A stretch of 43,790 nucleotides of DNA, from assembly GCA_026418625.1 (NCBI GenBank), contig JAOABA010000033.1, forward strand, positions 1 through 43,790. Reading direction: 5' to 3'. The notes beneath the pieces were generated by a model. The model worked only from the letters and a program-made list of their open reading frames with translations, was not told the origin of the DNA and ran no database searches. The translations under genes and the position numbers were made by a program. The stretch comes from Candidatus Kapaibacterium sp. (GTDB taxonomy: Bacteria; Bacteroidota; Ignavibacteria; Kapaibacteriales; UBA2268). Positions 33,598 to 41,505 of the stretch are shown piece by piece (within the stretch, counting starts at the first letter, position 1; every line of letters starts with the position of its first letter).

Positions 33598-34710
33598 TTA
33601 CAATTGCTGCAACATCTTTTTAGCTCTTGGAATTTGATTGCTATTTGGATATTCATCAACAAATTTAGCATAAGATTTTTTTGCATCCTCGATTCTGCCT
33701 ATTCTCAAATATGATTCGGCAATCATTATTGTTGCATAGTCTTTTTTATATGAATCTCCTGATTTAACAACTTTTCTGAAATAATCAATGGCTTTGCTGT
33801 AATTACCAAGTCCGAAATAGCTCTCACCAAGCCAGTAATAAGTTTTTAATTTCTCTGAAGAATTCTTTTGATTATTTTCAAGTTTTGTCAGCTCTGCAAC
33901 AGCACTTTGGTAGTCTCTTTTCGCTAAAAAATCCATAGCCAATTCAAATTCCTGAGGGTTTGTTGTTTTCTGAGTGTTATTTGCCTTATTTATCTCAACA
34001 TTACTTTTATTATTGCTTGGTTTCTCTGTTGAAATGGAAATATTTTTCTTTGTATTTTCTTTTAAATTAGATTTTTTTGGTTCTGAGCGTTTCTGTTTGC
34101 TAGTATTCTCAGCTAAATCATTTGATGATTTTTCGCTTTCTTCGTCAGGATATAAATAAAACCCACTTTGATTATTTTCATAAACTTCATTTTTGGTCTC
34201 TTTATGCTTGCTATTTTCATCTCCATAAATGCCTGTTGCTGATTTTTGATTAAGGTTTGCAAGAATTGACCTAATGGTAACTTTAATATCTTCTATATCA
34301 TTTTTAATATTATCAATATCTCTTTCGAGGAATGTCAATTTATCGAGCATTTTATCTTGCTGTTCTGTGTAAATCTTCATTTGCTCTCTTAATGAAGGAA
34401 TTTTTCTCTGTGGATTGGTATTGAATTCTTCATTATTAGGATCTACTTCAGTATTTAAATTTTTATTTGATATATTATTACTCATTTTTTCAAAGAGTCG
34501 TTCAGCTTCTTGTAATTGGGTGCTTTTTTCATCCTTGACAACCTCTTTCTTTTTATTATCAACTTTAGAATTAGAGGTAAAAAATTGATTTCCGCTTCTA
34601 ACGCTATTCGGAATAGAACAAGATGTAAGAATCAAATTAAAAACAATGGTGGATAATATTAAACAAGATTTTATTATCATCCAAAAACTATTATGTAAGA
34701 TTTTTTTCAT
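33598..34710 (-). CDS. TPR lipoprotein, CpoB/YbgF-like
   Basis: This 370-residue protein begins with a lipoprotein signal peptide ending in the lipobox LILTSC. A charged linker and a coiled-coil region (about 85-150, EQQDKMLDKLTFLERDIDNI and beyond) come next, then a Lys/Asn/Ser-rich disordered stretch, and C-terminal tetratricopeptide repeats (from about 255) of the YbgF type: AMDFLAKRDYQSAVAELTKL, YYWLGESYFGLGNYSKAIDY and AESYLRIGRIEDAKKSYAKF. The order coiled coil then TPR matches the Tol-Pal associated CpoB, but no tol genes are nearby. The role in envelope maintenance is inferred. Confidence 0.8.
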   Translation of the reverse strand: MKKILHNSFWMIIKSCLILSTIVFNLILTSCSIPNSVRSGNQFFTSNSKVDNKKKEVVKDEKSTQLQEAERLFEKMSNNISNKNLNTEVDPNNEEFNTNPQRKIPSLREQMKIYTEQQDKMLDKLTFLERDIDNIKNDIEDIKVTIRSILANLNQKSATGIYGDENSKHKETKNEVYENNQSGFYLYPDEESEKSSNDLAENTSKQKRSEPKKSNLKENTKKNISISTEKPSNNKSNVEINKANNTQKTTNPQEFELAMDFLAKRDYQSAVAELTKLENNQKNSSEKLKTYYWLGESYFGLGNYSKAIDYFRKVVKSGDSYKKDYATIMIAESYLRIGRIEDAKKSYAKFVDEYPNSNQIPRAKKMLQQL

Positions 34711-34865
34711 ATAGCTTATTTATCAAGTAATTACAAAAATTATTCAATACAATTCATCTACATTACAATGTTCTTGCCAATTTTTTATGTTAATTTAAGT
34801 TCTTATTTTATCACCATTTTAATTAATTTGGATTTTGTTATTAATGTATAATCTTTGATAATAAA

Positions 34866-35987
34866 TTGAAAATACTAATTTTTAATTGGCAGGATATAAA
34901 AAATCCTTTTGGTGGTGGTGCTGAAGTTCATCTTCACGAAATTTTCAGCAGAATTGCAAAAATGGATAATGAAGTTTGGCTCTACTGCTGCAAAACACCT
35001 GAATTAGAATATTTTGAAGAAATTGACGGAATAAAGATCTTCAGAAACGGAAATAGAAATACGTTCAATTTCACAGTTAAATCAGCTTACTTAAATAAGT
35101 TTCGAAAAGAAAAATTCGATATAGTTATTGATGACATAAATAAAATTCCTTTCTATACTCCATTATACGTAAAAGAGCCACTATTAGCCATCAGCCATCA
35201 TTTTTTCGGAAAAAGTATTTTCAGGGAAGCTAATCCGATTAGTGCTTCTTATGTCTATTTCTCTGAAAAACTAATGGATTTTGTTTATAAAAAAACGCAA
35301 TTTGCTGTAGTTTCGCAAAGCACTATGGATGAGTTTATATCACGTGGCTATGATCCAAAAAATTTCTCGATTGTTCAGAATGCAATCACGCAAGAAAAAT
35401 TTCCGATGAAAGTTGCCAACAAATCAGAATTCCCTACAATTGCCTATTTCGGAAGATTAAAAAAATATAAAAGCATAGATCATTTGCTCTTTGCTTTTGC
35501 CAAAGTAGACAAAATTTTCCCAAATGCCAGACTTCATATTCTTGGTAAGGGTGATTTTATGCCGTCTCTACAAAAGTTAGCCGTTGAATTAAATATTTAT
35601 GACAAGACTAAGTTCTTCGGTTATGTCAGCGAAGCTGAAAAAATTGAACTTTTAAGTTCAGCTTGGGTTGTTGTTAATACTTCAATGAAGGAAGGCTGGG
35701 GAATTACCAATATTGAAGCAAATGCCTGCGGGACTCCTGTTATCTCTGCGAATGTTCCCGGATTAAAAGACTCCGTCAGCGAGGGTATCTCAGGTTTACT
35801 ATATGATTATGGTAACATTAACCAGCTTACCGAAAAACTTGAGGCAATCCTGAGCAATCAGCAACTTAGGAATAATCTATCTGAAGGATCAATTCAGTGG
35901 GCAAGTCTGTTTTCTTGGGACAATTCCGCAAAACTAATGCTCGAAAGATGCAAAGAAGTTATCGAGCTATATCACAAGAGAAAATAA
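34866..35987 (+). CDS. Glycosyltransferase family 4
   Basis: This 373-residue GT-B enzyme moves a sugar from a nucleotide donor to a glycan or lipid. The N-terminus has NPFGGGAEVHLHEIFSRIAK, the acceptor-domain glycine-rich loop. The C-terminal half has TIAYFGRLKKYKSIDHLL, ARLHILGKGDF, and the donor-binding stretch MKEGWGITNIEANACGTPVI containing the E-x7-E pattern. The start is TTG, since an in-frame stop lies 24 nt upstream and no ATG fits; there is no Shine-Dalgarno. It stands alone, not in a polysaccharide cluster. Confidence 0.88.
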   Translation: MKILIFNWQDIKNPFGGGAEVHLHEIFSRIAKMDNEVWLYCCKTPELEYFEEIDGIKIFRNGNRNTFNFTVKSAYLNKFRKEKFDIVIDDINKIPFYTPLYVKEPLLAISHHFFGKSIFREANPISASYVYFSEKLMDFVYKKTQFAVVSQSTMDEFISRGYDPKNFSIVQNAITQEKFPMKVANKSEFPTIAYFGRLKKYKSIDHLLFAFAKVDKIFPNARLHILGKGDFMPSLQKLAVELNIYDKTKFFGYVSEAEKIELLSSAWVVVNTSMKEGWGITNIEANACGTPVISANVPGLKDSVSEGISGLLYDYGNINQLTEKLEAILSNQQLRNNLSEGSIQWASLFSWDNSAKLMLERCKEVIELYHKRK

Positions 35988-36250
35988 TATTTTAAATTTA
36001 CTGGAAGTTTGAATTAATATTAAATCAAGCAGGAATGCTTGACTAAATGTTGGAACAATCATCATTTTTTAGTTAAAATGCATAATTTTTAAACTATAAG
36101 GTGATAAAAATGTGAACGGGAAATTGAGCTTTTTTGATAATATTCTCCAAAAACAAACATTATTTTCATTTTGAACGGATTTTTGAATTTTTTTTAATTA
36201 AATTTTCTATACTACAATTATAAGGAGGACAAGATTCCTGTATCTGGGGT

Positions 36251-36359
36251 TGTGCAAAAAGCAGCCATTCTAAGGCGAAAGCGAAGAATTTAATAAGCCA
36301 TAGAATTATAATGGACTCTTCACTCCGTTCAGAGTGACAAAAAACAATTTTTATTCACA
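36251..36359. mobile_element. MITE-like hairpin element, degraded copy 2
   Basis: The ends TGTGCAAAAA (36251) and TTTTTATTCACA (to 36359) and the internal ACTCTTCACTCCGTTCAGAG match copy 1 at 26297-26419. The left internal arm has decayed (CCATTCTAAGGCGAAAGCG). Its presence beside relic genes marks this region as a site of repeat accumulation. Confidence 0.65.
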
Positions 36360-36526
36360 TCTTCATACACAGGAATGAAAAGTTAGAAGGGTTTATTGAT
36401 GGAGGTATAGAAATTTGAATGTTGGATCTTAGATTTAGCACCAATTTTTCAAAGAACTCAATACAAAGATAGCCTGATAGTGCGGAAAAATTGAGTGAAT
36501 AGTTCAAGAAATAAATATGGATTTGA

Positions 36527-36679
36527 GAGAGTATGCAAATATTGAGCATTATTAACCCTACGGTAAACCGTAGCGTTGATGGAATTGGTGTAGATGAAAT
36601 CAGGCTTTATAATTTGATTGGTGATTATGTTTTATCAAGCGATTACAGAGGAACACACCCCTTTATCCCCTCTCAATAG
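36527..36679 (+). pseudogene. Relic of a T9SS sorting domain, copy 1
   Basis: The open frame reads ILSIINPTVNRSVDGIG then VDEIRLYNLIGDYVLSSDYRG, which matches the middle of the sorting domain of the intact protein ending at 39719 (DEINIYNILGECVLS). An upstream stop (36524) and loss of homology after 36652 show that only a fragment survives. The codons for INPTVNRSVD (36551-36580) are a 30-nt near-palindrome. Confidence 0.7.
36551..36580. repeat. In-frame 30-nt palindrome in relic 1
   Basis: The arms ATTAACCCTACGGTA and AACCGTAGCGTTGAT pair at 12 of 15 positions. The element is exactly ten codons and lies in the reading frame of the relic, in the loop between the first strands of the sorting domain. 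Confidence 0.75.
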
Positions 36680-36925
36680 GGGAGGATGTGAATTGGTGTT
36701 TGGCTGAAGCCAAATAGTGAATAGAAACAAGGGACCCAGACCGAGTGTCAGGGCTATTCATTAGCAATAAGGCGAAGAAAAGAATCTTTTTCTCCAGAGT
36801 CATTCCAGTGCAGACAGGAATTTCGTCAATCCACATAGACTCCTGCCGCCACAGGAGCGACATATTGGTGGGAGACTCCTGCCTTCGCAGGAGTGACGTT
36901 TCCCAACTCCCCTTGTTATTCCTGT
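36660..36925. repeat. Cluster of mixed palindromic repeats
   Basis: Several unrelated hairpins lie side by side: CCCCT/AGGGG around 36660-36682, TTTGGC-TGAA-GCCAAA near 36699-36714, GTCATTCCAGTGCAGACAGG near 36800, an imperfect CTCCTGCC/CAGGAG copy at 36839-36856, and ACTCCTGC-CTTC-GCAGGAGT at 36875-36894. The last is a perfect 8-bp stem of a type common in environmental bacterial genomes. Together they separate relic 1 from relic 2. Confidence 0.6.
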
Positions 36926-36936
36926 GCATACAGTAA

Positions 36937-37092
36937 TCAGAATTCAAAATTGTCAACATCCTTGGTGAGTGTGTTTTATCCGTAGAGACACAGCATGCTG
37001 TGTCTCTACAAAGGATTAGCATTTCAAATTTGCCGACTGGAATTTACTATGTCCGTCTTAGTAGTTGGGTGGGACGGTTTGTCAAAATTTAA
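36937..37092 (+). pseudogene. Relic of a T9SS sorting domain, copy 2
   Basis: The frame reads KIVNILGECVLS, VETQHAVSLQR, ISISNLPTGIYYVRLSSWVG then RFVKI and stop. It is nearly identical to the end of the intact protein at 39560-39719 (NILGECVLS ... LPSGIYYVRLGDWVGRFVKIE), including the number of residues between ECVLS and LPxG. It has a stop upstream (36934) and no gene body. It repeats the segment also seen in relic 1, so two former T9SS gene ends lie here. Confidence 0.75.
36982..37009. repeat. Perfect 28-nt palindrome in relic 2
   Basis: GTAGAGACACAGCA is followed directly by its exact reverse complement, with no loop. It encodes VETQHAVSL within the relic frame, between ECVLS and the conserved LPTGIYYVRL strand. 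Confidence 0.85.
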
Positions 37093-37227
37093 AAATTTGG
37101 ATAGCATTAAGTAATTTATTAATTTAACAACTCATTTGACTTAATTATGATGGAATAAATCTTTTTTTTCAAACTTTATATGGAGCTTTAGTTATGTCTA
37201 AAGAGTATATTCCCCTCCTCCTGTATA

Positions 37228-38353
37228 ATGTATATTTTTATCCTAACATTATTATTTTCTGTTAAGTTAATGGCATTTGACTGGACTCCGTACATTGATA
37301 CTGAACCATGCAGTTTTGATATACAGACAAACGTCCCTTGGAGCGAAGAGCCACAAGAGAAAAAAAATATGTTTAACAGAAGACAGTGACAGATGCTGTT
37401 TTATGATAATATATTATGACATATGGAATGGGGTTAACTTGGATTTATATGAAGTTTTTATTGCTGCAATTTTTAATGATGGAGGTCAATGTTGTGATGA
37501 ATACAATCAGGAAGAAATTCTTGAAGTTTTTTTTAAAGATTTGTATTTCCAAAAATCAGAAGATGATGCCGGATTTTATAATCAGGTTACACTTAAGTGG
37601 ATTAAACAAGCACCATATCTGGGATTCAGAACAATAAAAGGAAAGTGTATCGAAGGCGAAACAATTTGTGAGTTGGTCTGTTGCACAATGCCAATTGAAA
37701 TAACTTTCGGTGGCGAAGGATATCAATATTATCAGGTTAGAAATATTACAATTGGACCTTCACAATATACATCACCCCAATGCAGCATACCCTGTATTCA
37801 GTCTTGTATAGTCGAAAAACAAGGGGTGGAGCCTGTAAAATGTCCAATACCTTGCAATTACGGTGAATGGTCAGAAGTACAAGAACAGATAATTGATGTA
37901 TATAATTGTCCGGGTTGCCAGATAACAATCAGATTTCAAAGTAGAACAACGGACCAATGCCCACCTGAAAATTTTGAATATTATGATTATAGACTTCTTG
38001 GCTGGTCGAGAAATATTCAAGGTTGCATTAATTGTTTGCAATGGGAGGAATTTTATTATAGTTATGCCGTTAATTGGTTACTAAGGGATGGTGGCTTACC
38101 TAAGCCTACAGAGCTTAATGAATGTTTTACAAACTACAGAATAATCAGTTCGACTTGCTGGAGATTTGTTCAAAGAAATGGTCAATACATTGCCGAGCCT
38201 TGCGAAACGGAAAAATGTTGTTATAAACTTTTTAGGATTTGTAAAACAGAAGAAAATCCTGATAGATGGACTACTACAGAATTAGAAAATAATTACCCGA
38301 TTGAGCAATGTGACCAGCCTTGTATTAGAATATGTAATATAGTACCATATTAG
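37228..38353 (+). CDS. Secreted Cys-rich protein, frameshifted near the N-terminus
   Basis: The reading frame from ATG 37228 gives a signal peptide and mature start (MYIFILTLLFSVKLMAFDW), then runs to a run of eight A at 37360-37367. From there the next frame continues as ICLTEDSDRCCFMIIYYDIW to the stop at 38353. One extra A in the homopolymer explains the break. The main body has more than 25 Cys, many as CxxC or CC pairs, and no named domain that I recognise. Loose resemblance to the Cys-rich repeat protein at 26458-27417 is compositional. An ATG at 37194 with GGAG upstream is in a third frame. The next gene starts 19 nt after the stop. Confidence 0.65.
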
Positions 38354-38372
38354 TTTTGGAAAGGTTGAAAGA

Positions 38373-39719
38373 ATGAAGATAAAAGCTGTCCTTCTAATAA
38401 TAATTATTTTCCCAGTTTTGGTTCAAGCTCAAAGTGGAAAGTGGGAGGTAATTGATACATTAAGATTCATTCAACCAGGTCATCAATATCCATGGGAAAT
38501 GAATTACATAAAAATTGAAAAGAGAGGAAATACAATTTGTGCTTTTGGTAATATGAGCCGACAATATCCTTGGAATCGAGTATCATGGGATAATGGTAAA
38601 ACATGGTCTTCTACCTTAATGGACTCAGCAAGATACAATCCTGATGATTCTTATCGTCCGGGAATAATCAATTCCGTTTCATTTCCAAACGAAAATTTTT
38701 GCATTATTTCGACTGACTCTGCATATTTTTGGATATCAAAGAACAAATTGAAATCTTGGGAAAAAAAGACAATAAAATCAGGAGAATCTATATATCATAT
38801 AAAATTTCTAAATGATAATGTTGGGTATGGTTTGCGAAAAAAAAAATTAATGATAACTAAAGACGGAGGAAATAACTGGCACGAAAAAGAAATTGTATCA
38901 CCTGACTCACTATCTGATTTTTCAGTGAATGATATGGTTGTTTTTCCTGATAAAATCATTTTACTCATTTATTTACCTAAAAATAAAACAAAATATACAT
39001 TCATATCTACCAATGATGGTGAAACATGGAATTATTATTATTCAGACACATTGAAGTTTCAGAAGGTGTTTTTTCTCGACAAGAATAATGGCTGGGGCTG
39101 TGGTGGACATCAAACCCAACAGGATTCACCTGTTTTAAGGGATGTGATTGTTCACACAACAGATGGAGGAAAAACCTGGCAAAGGCAACTCGATACATTA
39201 GTAATCCCACCGATGGGTTTAAATCAAGTCTATTTTGTTGATAAAGAAAATGGATTTGCTCATGGACAGGGAAGAAAATTATGGCGAACAACAGACGGAG
39301 GCAAACAATGGATAAGAGATACAAGTTTCAATAGTAGAAATATTCCATGGCCTACTATTGACATAGCACCAGTATCGCAGGATCTTATCTATGCATGTTC
39401 AGAATACATTGGATTAACATACAAATACTCAGAATCTACATCAGTTGTTCCCGATATAAAACAAAGTTTATTACCGGTGTTATCAGTTTCCCCCAATCCA
39501 GCAAAAGATTATATTGAAATAATTTATAGTATAGGGACAGGTCTCAGTCTTGCCTATACTGACGAAATAAATATCTACAACATTCTTGGTGAGTGTGTAT
39601 TATCAGAGAAAATTCATCAGATAACTCAGAGTTATCGGATGAATATCGAACATTTGCCATCAGGAATTTACTATGTCCGTCTTGGTGATTGGGTGGGACG
39701 CTTTGTCAAAATTGAATAA
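38373..39719 (+). CDS. T9SS-exported YCF48/Asp-box-repeat protein
   Basis: This 448-residue protein has a signal peptide (residues 1-20, ending VLVQAQ). The body carries repeats of the Asp-box/YCF48 beta-propeller type: VSWDNGKTWSS, MITKDGGNNWHEKE, ISTNDGETWNYYY, VHTTDGGKTWQRQ and WRTTDGGKQWIRD. From residue 370 a T9SS sorting domain follows, with SVSPNPAKDYIEI, DEINIYNILGECVLS, LPSGIYYVRLGDWVG and RFVKIE. The two loops of this domain are encoded by 33-nt palindromic DNA (see findings). It is probably in an operon with the Cys-rich gene before it. The ligand is unknown. Confidence 0.88.
   Translation: MKIKAVLLIIIIFPVLVQAQSGKWEVIDTLRFIQPGHQYPWEMNYIKIEKRGNTICAFGNMSRQYPWNRVSWDNGKTWSSTLMDSARYNPDDSYRPGIINSVSFPNENFCIISTDSAYFWISKNKLKSWEKKTIKSGESIYHIKFLNDNVGYGLRKKKLMITKDGGNNWHEKEIVSPDSLSDFSVNDMVVFPDKIILLIYLPKNKTKYTFISTNDGETWNYYYSDTLKFQKVFFLDKNNGWGCGGHQTQQDSPVLRDVIVHTTDGGKTWQRQLDTLVIPPMGLNQVYFVDKENGFAHGQGRKLWRTTDGGKQWIRDTSFNSRNIPWPTIDIAPVSQDLIYACSEYIGLTYKYSESTSVVPDIKQSLLPVLSVSPNPAKDYIEIIYSIGTGLSLAYTDEINIYNILGECVLSEKIHQITQSYRMNIEHLPSGIYYVRLGDWVGRFVKIE
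39528..39560. repeat. In-frame 33-nt imperfect palindrome in the sorting domain, loop 1
   Basis: The ends AGTATAGG (39528-39535) and CCTATACT (39553-39560) pair perfectly; the inner part is decayed. The element is exactly eleven codons in frame (SIGTGLSLAYT) and lies at the loop position where relic 1 has its 30-nt palindrome. Confidence 0.65.
39612..39644. repeat. In-frame 33-nt near-perfect palindrome in the sorting domain, loop 2
   Basis: Arms ATTCATCAGATAACTC and GAGTTATCGGATGAAT pair at 15 of 16 positions around a single central A. The element is exactly eleven codons in frame (IHQITQSYRMN) and sits where relic 2 carries its 28-nt palindrome. Confidence 0.85.
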
Positions 39720-39739
39720 CCACTACTTTCAAGTAGTGG
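39720..39739 (+). terminator. Hairpin after the T9SS gene
   Basis: CCACTACTT-TC-AAGTAGTGG directly follows the stop codon at 39717-39719. The 9-bp stem has only a 2-nt loop and no clean T-run, so it may be a repeat that also acts as a terminator or mRNA stabiliser. Confidence 0.45.
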
Positions 39740-39803
39740 AGAAAGAAAAAATATTTCTAAAGAAGACTTCCGTTAGAACAGGCATCCCTTTCAGTGCAAA
39801 GAA

Positions 39804-39836
39804 AGATGTCCTACACTTCAAAGGTGTAGGACATCT
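39804..39836. repeat. 13-bp-stem palindrome between convergent genes
   Basis: AGATGTCCTACAC (39804-39816) and GTGTAGGACATCT (39824-39836) form a perfect stem with a 7-nt loop. It could serve as a terminator for the converging T9SS and peroxiredoxin genes. Its form is that of the dispersed palindromic repeats of this genome. Confidence 0.65.
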
Positions 39837-39897
39837 GATTATTTGGTAAATCCAGAATTTTTTACTGTTTATAAAAACATATCAAAATAAAAGAATA

Positions 39898-40557
39898 TTA
39901 TTCGCTTTTATCATTCAAGTCTTTATAGCAGAACCACCAATCATAGTTCTTATACCTGCTTTTCTTATATTGAGCGGCTTTAATATCGGAAGCAGGTGGA
40001 ACTATAACATTATCACCGATTAATTCATTATTGGGCCAATTAGCTGGCATTGCAGCGTGGTTGTTGTCTGCAATCTGAATAGCTTTGACCATTCTCAATA
40101 ATTCATCAAAGTTACGTCCGAGTTCCTGTGGATAATAAAGAATCGCTCTGATTTTCCCGGTAGGATCAACTAAGAAGACTGCTCTAACAGTATTTGTGCC
40201 TTTGCCGGGATGGATAAAACCTAATTTCTTTGCTAAATCGCCATTATCGGCAATTATTGGAAATTGAATTTCGATGTTTAAATTGTCTTTTATCCATTCA
40301 ACCCATTTAATGTGTGAAAAAACCTGATCAATAGACAAACCGATTAATTCGGTATTCAATTTCTTGAATTCATCATATCTTTTTTGAAAAGCATAGAATT
40401 CGGTTGTGCAAACCGGTGTGAAATCAGCCGGATGACTGAAAAGAATGAACCATTTGCCTTGAAAATCCTTTGGAATGACCATTTTTCCGTGTGTTGTTTG
40501 AACTTCGAATTCCGGGAACATATCCCCGATGAGTGGCATTGAACCATATTGTTCCAT
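39898..40557 (-). CDS. 1-Cys/Prx6-type peroxiredoxin
   Basis: This 219-residue thiol peroxidase reduces H2O2 and organic peroxides. The peroxidatic Cys is C50 in [13 protein letters not shown]. The length and the long C-terminal domain ([20 protein letters not shown], then [36 protein letters not shown]) mark the Prx6 group. One more Cys near residue 211 (WWFCYKD) is in the position where some archaeal members have resolving Cys. GGAGG precedes the ATG. It is the third gene of the perR-dps-prx operon, 38 nt after dps. Confidence 0.93.
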
Positions 40558-40595
40558 AAAAATTCCTCCTTTATTGAATTAGTTATTAATAATAA

Positions 40596-41069
40596 TTAGT
40601 TGTTTAAATAAGCAGAATACATCCAAACAAGTTTTTCTTGCTCTCTGATATAATCGGACATTAGCGCATTTGTTCCTTCGTCGCCAGCTTCGGCTGATAA
40701 TTCAAGAATTTTTCGCTGAAGCATAAGAAGTTTTTTGAAACTGTCTAAAATTGACTCAACACAAGCCTTACCATCAAAAACATTCACAGCGGGTTGAATT
40801 TGTGAATTTTTCAAATAATCCGTGAAACTGTGAAATGGGGTGTGGCTGAGTGTTAAAAGCCTCTCAGCTATTTCGTCAATCTTAAGTTGAATGTTGTTAT
40901 AAAGCTCTTCGAATTTCAAGTGCAATTCAAAGAACTTATCACCTTTGATATTCCAATGAAATCCTCTTAAGTTTTGATAAAACACCTGATAGTTAGCAAG
41001 TAAGATGTTAAGTTTTTCGGCTAATTTTTTTGATTTTTGTGCATCGAGACCAATTCTGTTTGTTGCCAT
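40596..41069 (-). CDS. dps: Dps-family ferritin
   Basis: This 157-residue mini-ferritin oxidises Fe2+ with H2O2 and stores the iron, protecting DNA. The ferroxidase residues H38, H50, E54, D65 and E69 (GFHWNIKG ... FFELHLKFEELY ... DEIAER) have the standard spacing. The start chosen is ATG 41069, which has AAGGAGGT 5 nt upstream; a longer frame to 41108 would run into perR and lacks such a site. It begins 22 nt after the perR stop, so the two share a transcript. Confidence 0.93.
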   Translation of the reverse strand: MATNRIGLDAQKSKKLAEKLNILLANYQVFYQNLRGFHWNIKGDKFFELHLKFEELYNNIQLKIDEIAERLLTLSHTPFHSFTDYLKNSQIQPAVNVFDGKACVESILDSFKKLLMLQRKILELSAEAGDEGTNALMSDYIREQEKLVWMYSAYLNN

Positions 41070-41091
41070 AGTTACCTCCTTAAAAAAATGT

Positions 41092-41505
41092 TTATTTAAA
41101 TTCTCCAATTAGTTGAAGATTTATTTCTTTTAACTCAAAATTATCAATTTTTTTGTTTTTAAAATAGTTTTCTATCATATTTTTTAAATCATTGTCATAA
41201 TAATCTTCCAATTTGTTTTTCTCAGGATGATATAAATGAAAATGATTAGTTGTGATTGCGTCATATCTCACGTAATCACAATCTGTTTTTATTGCCCTAA
41301 CAAGACCGACTTCTTTCAGCGACTCAAGAGTTTTATAAACAGTAGCCAAAGAAATCGTCGGATACTGTTTTAAAATGGTTTTATAAAGCTCCTCAGCCGA
41401 AGGATGTGTTTTGGTTTTCATCAAAGCATCCAAAACAGCCACCCTTTGATGAGTTGCCTTCAAACCAGATTTATTTAACTTCTCTATGATATCTTTTTTA
41501 TTCAT
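41092..41505 (-). CDS. perR: PerR-type Fur-family peroxide regulator without structural Zn cysteines
   Basis: This 137-residue repressor has the winged-helix region (GLKATHQRVAVLDALM and ISLATVYKTLESLKEVGLV). All five metal-sensing ligands of PerR are present with a constant offset of three from Bacillus subtilis: H34, D82, H88, H90 and D101. Asp rather than Glu at the last site favours PerR over Fur. Both CxxC pairs of the structural zinc site are missing; the first is replaced by YHPEKN and the only Cys is C76. The ATG at 41505 is preferred over a TTG at 41517. It leads a dps-peroxiredoxin operon. Confidence 0.88.
   Translation of the reverse strand: MNKKDIIEKLNKSGLKATHQRVAVLDALMKTKTHPSAEELYKTILKQYPTISLATVYKTLESLKEVGLVRAIKTDCDYVRYDAITTNHFHLYHPEKNKLEDYYDNDLKNMIENYFKNKKIDNFELKEINLQLIGEFK

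Follow-up and report, generated by a model that had tools for sequence, protein, structure and literature searches.

Several unrelated families of palindromes, 28-33 nt long, fill the same two loops of T9SS type A sorting domains in several genomes, while being almost absent from the coding DNA that we examined outside sorting domains and RAYT-type genes. What is new here is that many families have repeatedly occupied two loops of a single secretion-signal domain, and have been exchanged as mosaics; in-frame REPs in other proteins are already known. The reading that we consider probable is that the loop palindromes are REP-like mobile repeats which entered sorting-domain loops and were spread among copies of the domain by recombination or gene conversion.

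The gene that gave rise to these observations (38373-39719) lies in a stretch of 43,790 nucleotides, hereafter the window, from the genome that we label G000 (Table 1). The C-terminus of its open reading frame matches the T9SS type A sorting domain (PF18962, 6.5e-11) and scores 31.7 bits against TIGR04183, for which the cut-off is 23; its N-terminus, judged by eye, resembles a signal peptide. AlphaFold2 (mean pLDDT 83.4) predicts a seven-strand fold for the domain, and among PDB structures mirolase matches it best, with its C-terminal domain (TMq 0.68, Foldseek E 1e-3). On profile scores that exceed the cut-offs for both PF18962 and TIGR04183, and on a predicted CTD fold, we class the window domain as a T9SS type A sorting domain: it has the conserved strands and the predicted fold of the family, but differs from its usual members in that the loops are built from palindromic repeats.

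A preliminary description of this gene reported two in-frame palindromes of eleven codons within the sorting domain, both between conserved strands. The second of these (39612-39644, 33 nt) is as described: 15 of 16 pairs match, the frame is kept, 30 of 33 positions are self-complementary and, folded as DNA, the segment has a z of -7.1 that none of 200 shuffles equals. The first (39528-39560) does have perfect ends of 8 bp, yet 20 of 33 positions are self-complementary, and on its own it is weak (z -2.3, with 9 of 200 shuffles as good). It is a decayed copy of family 1a (GTAGAGACAGGTCTNAGACCTGTCTCTAC), a 29-nt palindrome to which 39531-39559 aligns without gaps; in that register 16 of 29 positions are self-complementary. 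In the predicted model, palindrome 1 falls within a low-confidence loop between strands 25-31 and 43-47, while palindrome 2 spans a turn (59-64) and extends into strand 65-69, so that the placement between strands is right for the first and partly right for the second.

The relic domains upstream carry, as had been stated, different palindromes in their loops, one of 30 nt (24 of 30 positions self-complementary) at 36551-36580 and one of 28 nt at 36982-37009, where every position is self-complementary. In loop 1 of the second relic palindromy has been lost (8 of 26 positions self-complementary). Intergenic dRS3-like repeats at 36800-36910 (ATTCC..GGAAT, ACTCCTGC..GCAGGAGT) adjoin a relic domain and resemble loop family 1b. 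An Rfam search of positions 34000-41500 gave no match. In a perfect-seed repeat scan of the window neither target palindrome was among the 25 pairs listed, and we therefore adopted an ungapped-arm score (+1 for a match, -2 for a mismatch), to which all scores given below refer.

Table 1. Features of the window that bear on the loop palindromes (positions are those of the window; a dot marks features without strand)
Feature	Position	Strand	Basis or comparison
Putative secreted protein gene, BNR/Ycf48-like repeats and C-terminal T9SS type A sorting domain	38373..39719	+	Profile matches
Sorting domain of palindrome-bearing subfamily, loop families 1a and 2b	39486..39716	+	A1 profile E 3.1e-37 (this domain is itself one row of A1)
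Loop 1, decayed family 1a copy	39531..39559	+	6/28 positions differ from family 1a
Family 2b palindrome in loop 2, translated IHQITQSYRMN	39612..39644	+	Same family as palindromes around the C14 RAYT-like gene
Hairpin CCACTACTTTCAAGTAGTGG, immediately 3' of the stop codon	39720..39739	.	Like the hairpin after 18/53 A1 places (loose pattern)
33-nt intergenic palindrome AGATGTCC...GGACATCT, REP-like	39804..39836	.	Family also found 3' of sorting-domain copies
Family 1c palindrome ATTAACCCTACGGTAAACCGTAGCGTTGAT in loop 1 of relic sorting domain 1	36551..36580	+	3/30 positions off 1c consensus
Relic sorting domain 1, loop 2, family 2d (CCCCTCT...AGGGG) segment	36653..36683	+	3/33 off 2d consensus, from 36653
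Relic 2, loop 1, decayed family 1b (dRS3-like ATTCCTG...CAGGAAT)	36916..36941	+	6/26 positions off 1b
3' half of relic (orphan) sorting domain 2, with a single stop within the match	36925..37089	+	A1 profile E 1.5e-22
Relic 2, loop 2, perfect family 2a palindrome, 28 nt	36982..37009	+	28/28 self-complementary

Sorting-domain copies are often trailed by a CCACTACT hairpin (the loose pattern counted in Table 1), and the AGATGTCC palindrome lies downstream of copies at 16 of 53 A1 places, which indicates that the repeated unit extends past the stop codon. A palindrome similar to that at 39804-39836 sits 322 bp from a RAYT-like ORF in genome G005.

The history of the loops can be followed within G000 in A1, a tight sorting-domain subfamily whose match list is topped by 21 gene-borne copies. 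With families assigned by distance (at most 0.36 for loop 1 and 0.34 for loop 2), 18 of these 21 have an assigned family at loop 1 and 20 at loop 2. Loop 1 holds family 1a (translated VETGLRP..), 1b (SFLRMQES, sometimes in tandem) or 1c (INPTVNRRVDG), and loop 2 holds 2a (VETQHAVSLQ), 2b (IHPITLSYRMN), 2c or 2d. Gene-borne copies combine 1a with 2a (4), 2b (4) and 2c (2); 1b with 2b (2), 2c (2) and 2d (1); and 1c with 2c (1) and 2d (1). Among orphans, 1a occurs with 2c (2) and 1b with 2a (3), 2b (2) and 2c (1), the pairing of 1b with 2a being confined to orphans. These gene and orphan labels were set by hand, with C13 entered once per strand; two places labelled as orphans although they lie in long open frames (C44:46857 and C20:4585) have no loop family, and the combinations are unaffected. 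As all four combinations of 1a or 1b with 2a or 2b are present, loops have been exchanged or acquired independently, and the loop-1 and loop-2 families recombine freely in this genome. The preliminary description had envisaged a family of palindromic elements that insert into, and are exchanged within, these loops. Recurrent families are indeed found, though several unrelated ones and not one, and the spread in this genome looks like an exchange of domain pieces instead of a fresh insertion each time.

Divergence around the palindromes bears on how they spread. The comparison took in copies whose flanks are complete and whose domain tail can be recognised, which excludes those at RAYT loci. 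The per-site distance for 2b (16 copies, nine of them orphan) is 0.030 in the palindrome, 0.323 in the upstream flank and 0.163 downstream, and for 2a (10 copies, six orphan) 0.069, 0.284 and 0.258, the flank values being somewhat inflated because flanks were compared ungapped. The low-divergence tract overshoots the 2b palindrome by roughly 10-15 nt on each side, and orphan copies encode no protein to protect. A tract that reaches beyond the palindrome speaks for exchange among sorting-domain copies, by recombination or gene conversion with the palindrome at its centre, and most of the spread in G000 may well have taken this route. HSP start points cluster immediately past loop 1 and past loop 2; this follows from the loops being different, and is alone no proof of breakpoints at palindromes.

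These data also suit a history in which only the sorting domain was duplicated, each palindrome having entered one ancestral domain once, with RAYT genes as bystanders. All ten 2a copies in G000 (at most 3 mismatches) lie within sorting-domain or orphan matches, as do nine of the ten 1a copies, the tenth lying 12 nt upstream of an orphan match; given this confinement, and a low-divergence tract that takes in flanking domain sequence, gene conversion accounts for the spread within this genome at least as well. Paralogues are 25-33% identical in the passenger (in long matches) and far closer in their tails: the window and C8 proteins share 25% identity over the matched passenger region and 86% in the tail. 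Orthologues of the window protein were sought in five genomes, and no empty site came to light: the matches were G000 paralogues, mostly 25-33% identical, and distant relatives only.

Duplication of the domain alone is harder to reconcile with the 2b-type copies that stand at RAYT loci or in DNA where no sorting-domain sequence flanks them. A whole-genome pattern search of G000 found 17 close 2b copies, of which 15 fall within sorting-domain or orphan matches. The other two are on contig C14, where a RAYT-like gene (G000:C14:43614-44198, minus strand) carries 2b-type palindromes at either end and a third within it, in frame; this inner copy reads SSDDSKSSDE in a frame unlike that of the sorting domains. 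The gene matches NCBIfam NF047646 with an E of 3.3e-15 and 56.3 bits, below the cut-off of 80; by eye, its protein has an HUH-type motif (MPTHFHF), and a PDB match to 4ER8 is weak (E 0.04). The 20 sites of the 2b core pattern in G000 comprise 15 in sorting domains or orphans, three at the RAYT locus and two elsewhere (C10:143489 and C17:41409). A looser 2b pattern gave 43 sites in relatives; of the 40 examined (one site in G011 and two in G014 were left out), six belong to sorting domains or orphans; the other 34 do not, and 28 of these are in no open frame of at least 90 aa. G010 has 18 2b-type sites, four of them in sorting domains or orphans. The preliminary description had suggested looking for palindromes common to the loops and to DNA elsewhere, and the same families do occur outside sorting domains.

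RAYT-like genes in other genomes present a similar picture. A RAYT-like ORF in G016 has a 2b-type palindrome at each end and one mid-ORF, all inside the open frame, and in the congeneric G001 a RAYT remnant lies beside three 1a-type palindromes, both close 1a copies of that genome (at most 3 mismatches) adjoining the remnant. RAYT-like ORFs of G014, G031, G039 and G003 contain other palindromes, likewise in frame, at 18-63 residues past the HUH-type motif. A palindrome is present in 14 of 22 RAYT-centred segments of 1.4 kb versus 2 of 21 control segments, the controls being the first 1.4 kb of relatives' sorting-domain loci. Loop palindromes are thus shared with RAYT loci, and this link, absent from the preliminary description, points to a likely source of the palindromes; transposition, with a part for RAYT in the dispersal, would fit these arrangements. 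Our survey of RAYT genes, which did not proceed family by family, saw no partner for 1b, 1c, 2c or 2d, or for 2a in G000.

We dropped a pairing of two RAYT sequence types with two palindrome classes, to which L256 and L251 run counter: 33-nt palindromes are carried by L254, L255 and L269 but are absent from L256, all of the YYHIYNRT type, and L251 breaks the pairing from the other side. Some further arrangements on and around such genes were observed. A separate IS200-type Y1 transposase gene on C14 (G000:C14:42166-42588, L158) has the palindrome CCCACGAATAAATTCGTGGG on each side, and the RAYT-like ORFs of L265 (G003) and L261 (G039) contain repeated peptide segments past the HUH-type motif, encoded in L261 by three identical in-frame palindromes.

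A single entry per palindrome is also at odds with the unrelated palindromes that occupy the same loops in other genomes, at times in two frames within one genome. Relatives' domains scoring at least 11 come from up to ten further genomes, a figure in which KTt_bin-1687 (CAIOZA) and G005 are counted once, as are G011 and Loclat_bin-16206 (CAIWET), each pair being probably one genome, and in which further coincidences are possible. Many of their loop palindromes are unlike those of G000 (GTAGGGGCGAACGGCCGTTCGCCCTTAC in L162, AACCTTCCGAAGGTTTGAAACCTTCGGAAGGTT in L161, GTAGGGAACAACGATCGTTGTTCCCTAC in L116, AGACTTCCGAAGTCTTGAAGACTTCGGAAGTCT in L121). Loop 1 of KTt_bin-1687 has one type read in two frames (L162, GTA GGG GCG; L172, TGT AGG GGC), and so has loop 2 of G010 with a 2b-type core (L329, CAT CCG AAG; L325, ACA TCC GAT). 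With 80 loci grouped by hand according to their titles, scores of at least 11 were found in 6 of 30 Ignavibacteria/Kapabacteria-like loci and 1 of 50 others. The lone outsider, L209 from a Bacteroidales rumen MAG, carries a GTAG-type palindrome (TGTAGAGACGTTTCCTGAAACGTCTCTACA) in sorting-domain loop 2 (L209:3102-3131). We consider it unlikely, on this evidence, that domain duplication is the whole explanation. Two loop peptides may be recorded here: loop 2 of L209 reads VETFPETSLQ, like the VETQHAVSLQ of 2a but with another interior, and loop 1 of the L187 sorting domain has NSVILNEAKNL, apparently the translation of a TCATTCTGAACGAAG-type repeat. A repeat related to the TCATTCTGAACGAAG type is present in G000 orphan flanks.

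Might the palindromes instead be kept as DNA or RNA hairpins near gene ends, serving termination, mRNA stability or regulation, with the peptide as a by-product? The hairpins are strong, sorting domains occupy the 3' ends of genes, more hairpins follow some of them, and compensatory changes preserve pairing: across families, two-sided pairing-preserving changes affect 10/14 pairs in 28-mers (0/500 shuffles reach the score) and 2/15 pairs in 33-mers, in sequences that had been chosen for palindromy. However, perfect copies persist in orphan fragments, sequence and not structure alone is conserved among copies, and such palindromes are scarce in the other ORFs of the stretches examined. In 792 kb of G000, in stretches chosen around sorting domains, those scoring at least 13 with a GC of at least 0.3 number 25 in 44.1 kb of sorting-domain or relic sequence, 3 in 662 kb of other ORF (one being the RAYT-like gene) and 20 in 85.8 kb of intergenic DNA; at a score of at least 11 without GC filter the numbers are 35, 11 and 63, respectively. 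In relatives, at a score of at least 11, sorting domains have 13 in 9.4 kb, other ORFs 4 in 100.5 kb and intergenic DNA 11 in 13.0 kb; three of the four sites in other ORFs fall within one RAYT-like ORF and the fourth is a sorting domain removed by de-duplication. A hairpin function as the reason for the palindromes therefore seems very improbable.

Comparison with codon-shuffled controls, a check put forward in the preliminary description, reveals an excess of loop palindromes in G000 and in relatives alike. G000 holds at least 150 PF18962 domains (150 scored of 250 candidates); 12 of the 150 listed score at least 11 against a mean of 0.83 (maximum 3) in 100 synonymous-codon shuffles, and 8 score at least 14 against a mean of 0.04 (maximum 1). 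Most of the palindromic domains in G000 are related copies, so these counts are not independent events and show enrichment, not numbers of insertions. The loop families account for 11 of the 12, the exception (C5:9607) having an AT-rich palindrome outside them. For relatives, with exact duplicate domains and matches trailed by more than 30 residues removed, 24 of 108 domains score at least 11 against a shuffled mean of 0.61 (maximum 3). By manual reading the palindrome is in loop 1 or loop 2 in 23 of these 24; the exception, L290, has GAAGTAAG.. outside the loop scheme. Chance or a codon-usage artefact, to which the weakness of the 39528 palindrome by itself might point, is refuted for the families taken together by the shuffles, by location specificity and by whole-genome recurrence that is exact (the reversed-pattern control gave 0).

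Under the account that we prefer, that of REP-like mobile repeats, a RAYT-type transposase would have dispersed the palindromes, and in-frame copies that landed in a tolerant surface loop would have survived. The palindromes would then have been spread and shuffled as the many sorting-domain copies recombined or underwent gene conversion with one another, and the same process may have left orphan 3' halves of sorting domains between genes. The loop-encoded peptides are probably passive loop fillers, and the palindrome-bearing secretion signals presumably still work, to judge from domains that are intact.

REPs are defined as extragenic, and their known in-frame cases are scattered; Rickettsia palindromic elements enter unrelated proteins. 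Family 1b (ATTCCTG...CAGGAAT) we take to be similar to the dRS3-type repeats of Neisseria, from which it differs in being coding and inside a sorting-domain loop. The likeness to REP elements and RAYT (TnpA_REP) lies in palindromes of 20-40 nt with several families per genome, in a palindrome-flanked RAYT-type partner gene, and in copies that lie in frame within proteins. In G000 the loop palindromes are multicopy and within that length range, with 10 copies of 2a, 10 of 1a and 20 of the 2b core pattern, short of the more than 100 per genome cited for REPs at high copy (PMC2817692), and the partner RAYT gene is flanked by the same palindrome in the case of 2b (G000, G016). For GTAG/CGTC REPs as described by Di Nocera et al. 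2013 (PMC3733652) the tag is unpaired, whereas here the GTAG end is paired or absent: 2a-type 28-mers pair GTAG with CTAC, 1a does likewise by sequence, and 2b has no GTAG/CGTC tag. It is because of this departure from the unpaired-tag definition that we call the palindromes REP-like. The intragenic REPs of that paper are in a range of proteins, among them uvrA, uvrB, dnaE2 and recB, and their sites mostly differ, recB of two Xanthomonas species being its same-site example (PMC3733652); here, in contrast, many families share a single domain family and its two fixed loops. Neither 'sorting' nor 'C-terminal' occurs as a word in the main text of that paper, and the literature listed in our searches, mostly at the level of titles and abstracts, yielded nothing that links palindromic repeats to T9SS sorting domains. 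Compared by description, Rickettsia palindromic elements are alike in being palindromes in frame within seemingly functional proteins (PMC3733652), and differ from the present case in its secretion-signal target, its length of 28-33 nt and its RAYT link.

In several genomes, unrelated palindromic repeats have entered two loops of one domain of defined function time and again, and this offers a natural series both for how mobile repeats become protein sequence and for how secretion signals spread among surface proteins. It also carries a warning, in that peptides of these tails such as VETQHAVSLQ or SFLRMQES are translations of repeats and not conserved protein motifs. More tentatively, it is possible that REP/RAYT made the T9SS sorting signal an exchangeable cassette, in which palindromes that bracket the central strand would serve as preferred breakpoints, secretion tails, whole or in part, would pass from one surface protein to another, and orphan tails would remain between genes.
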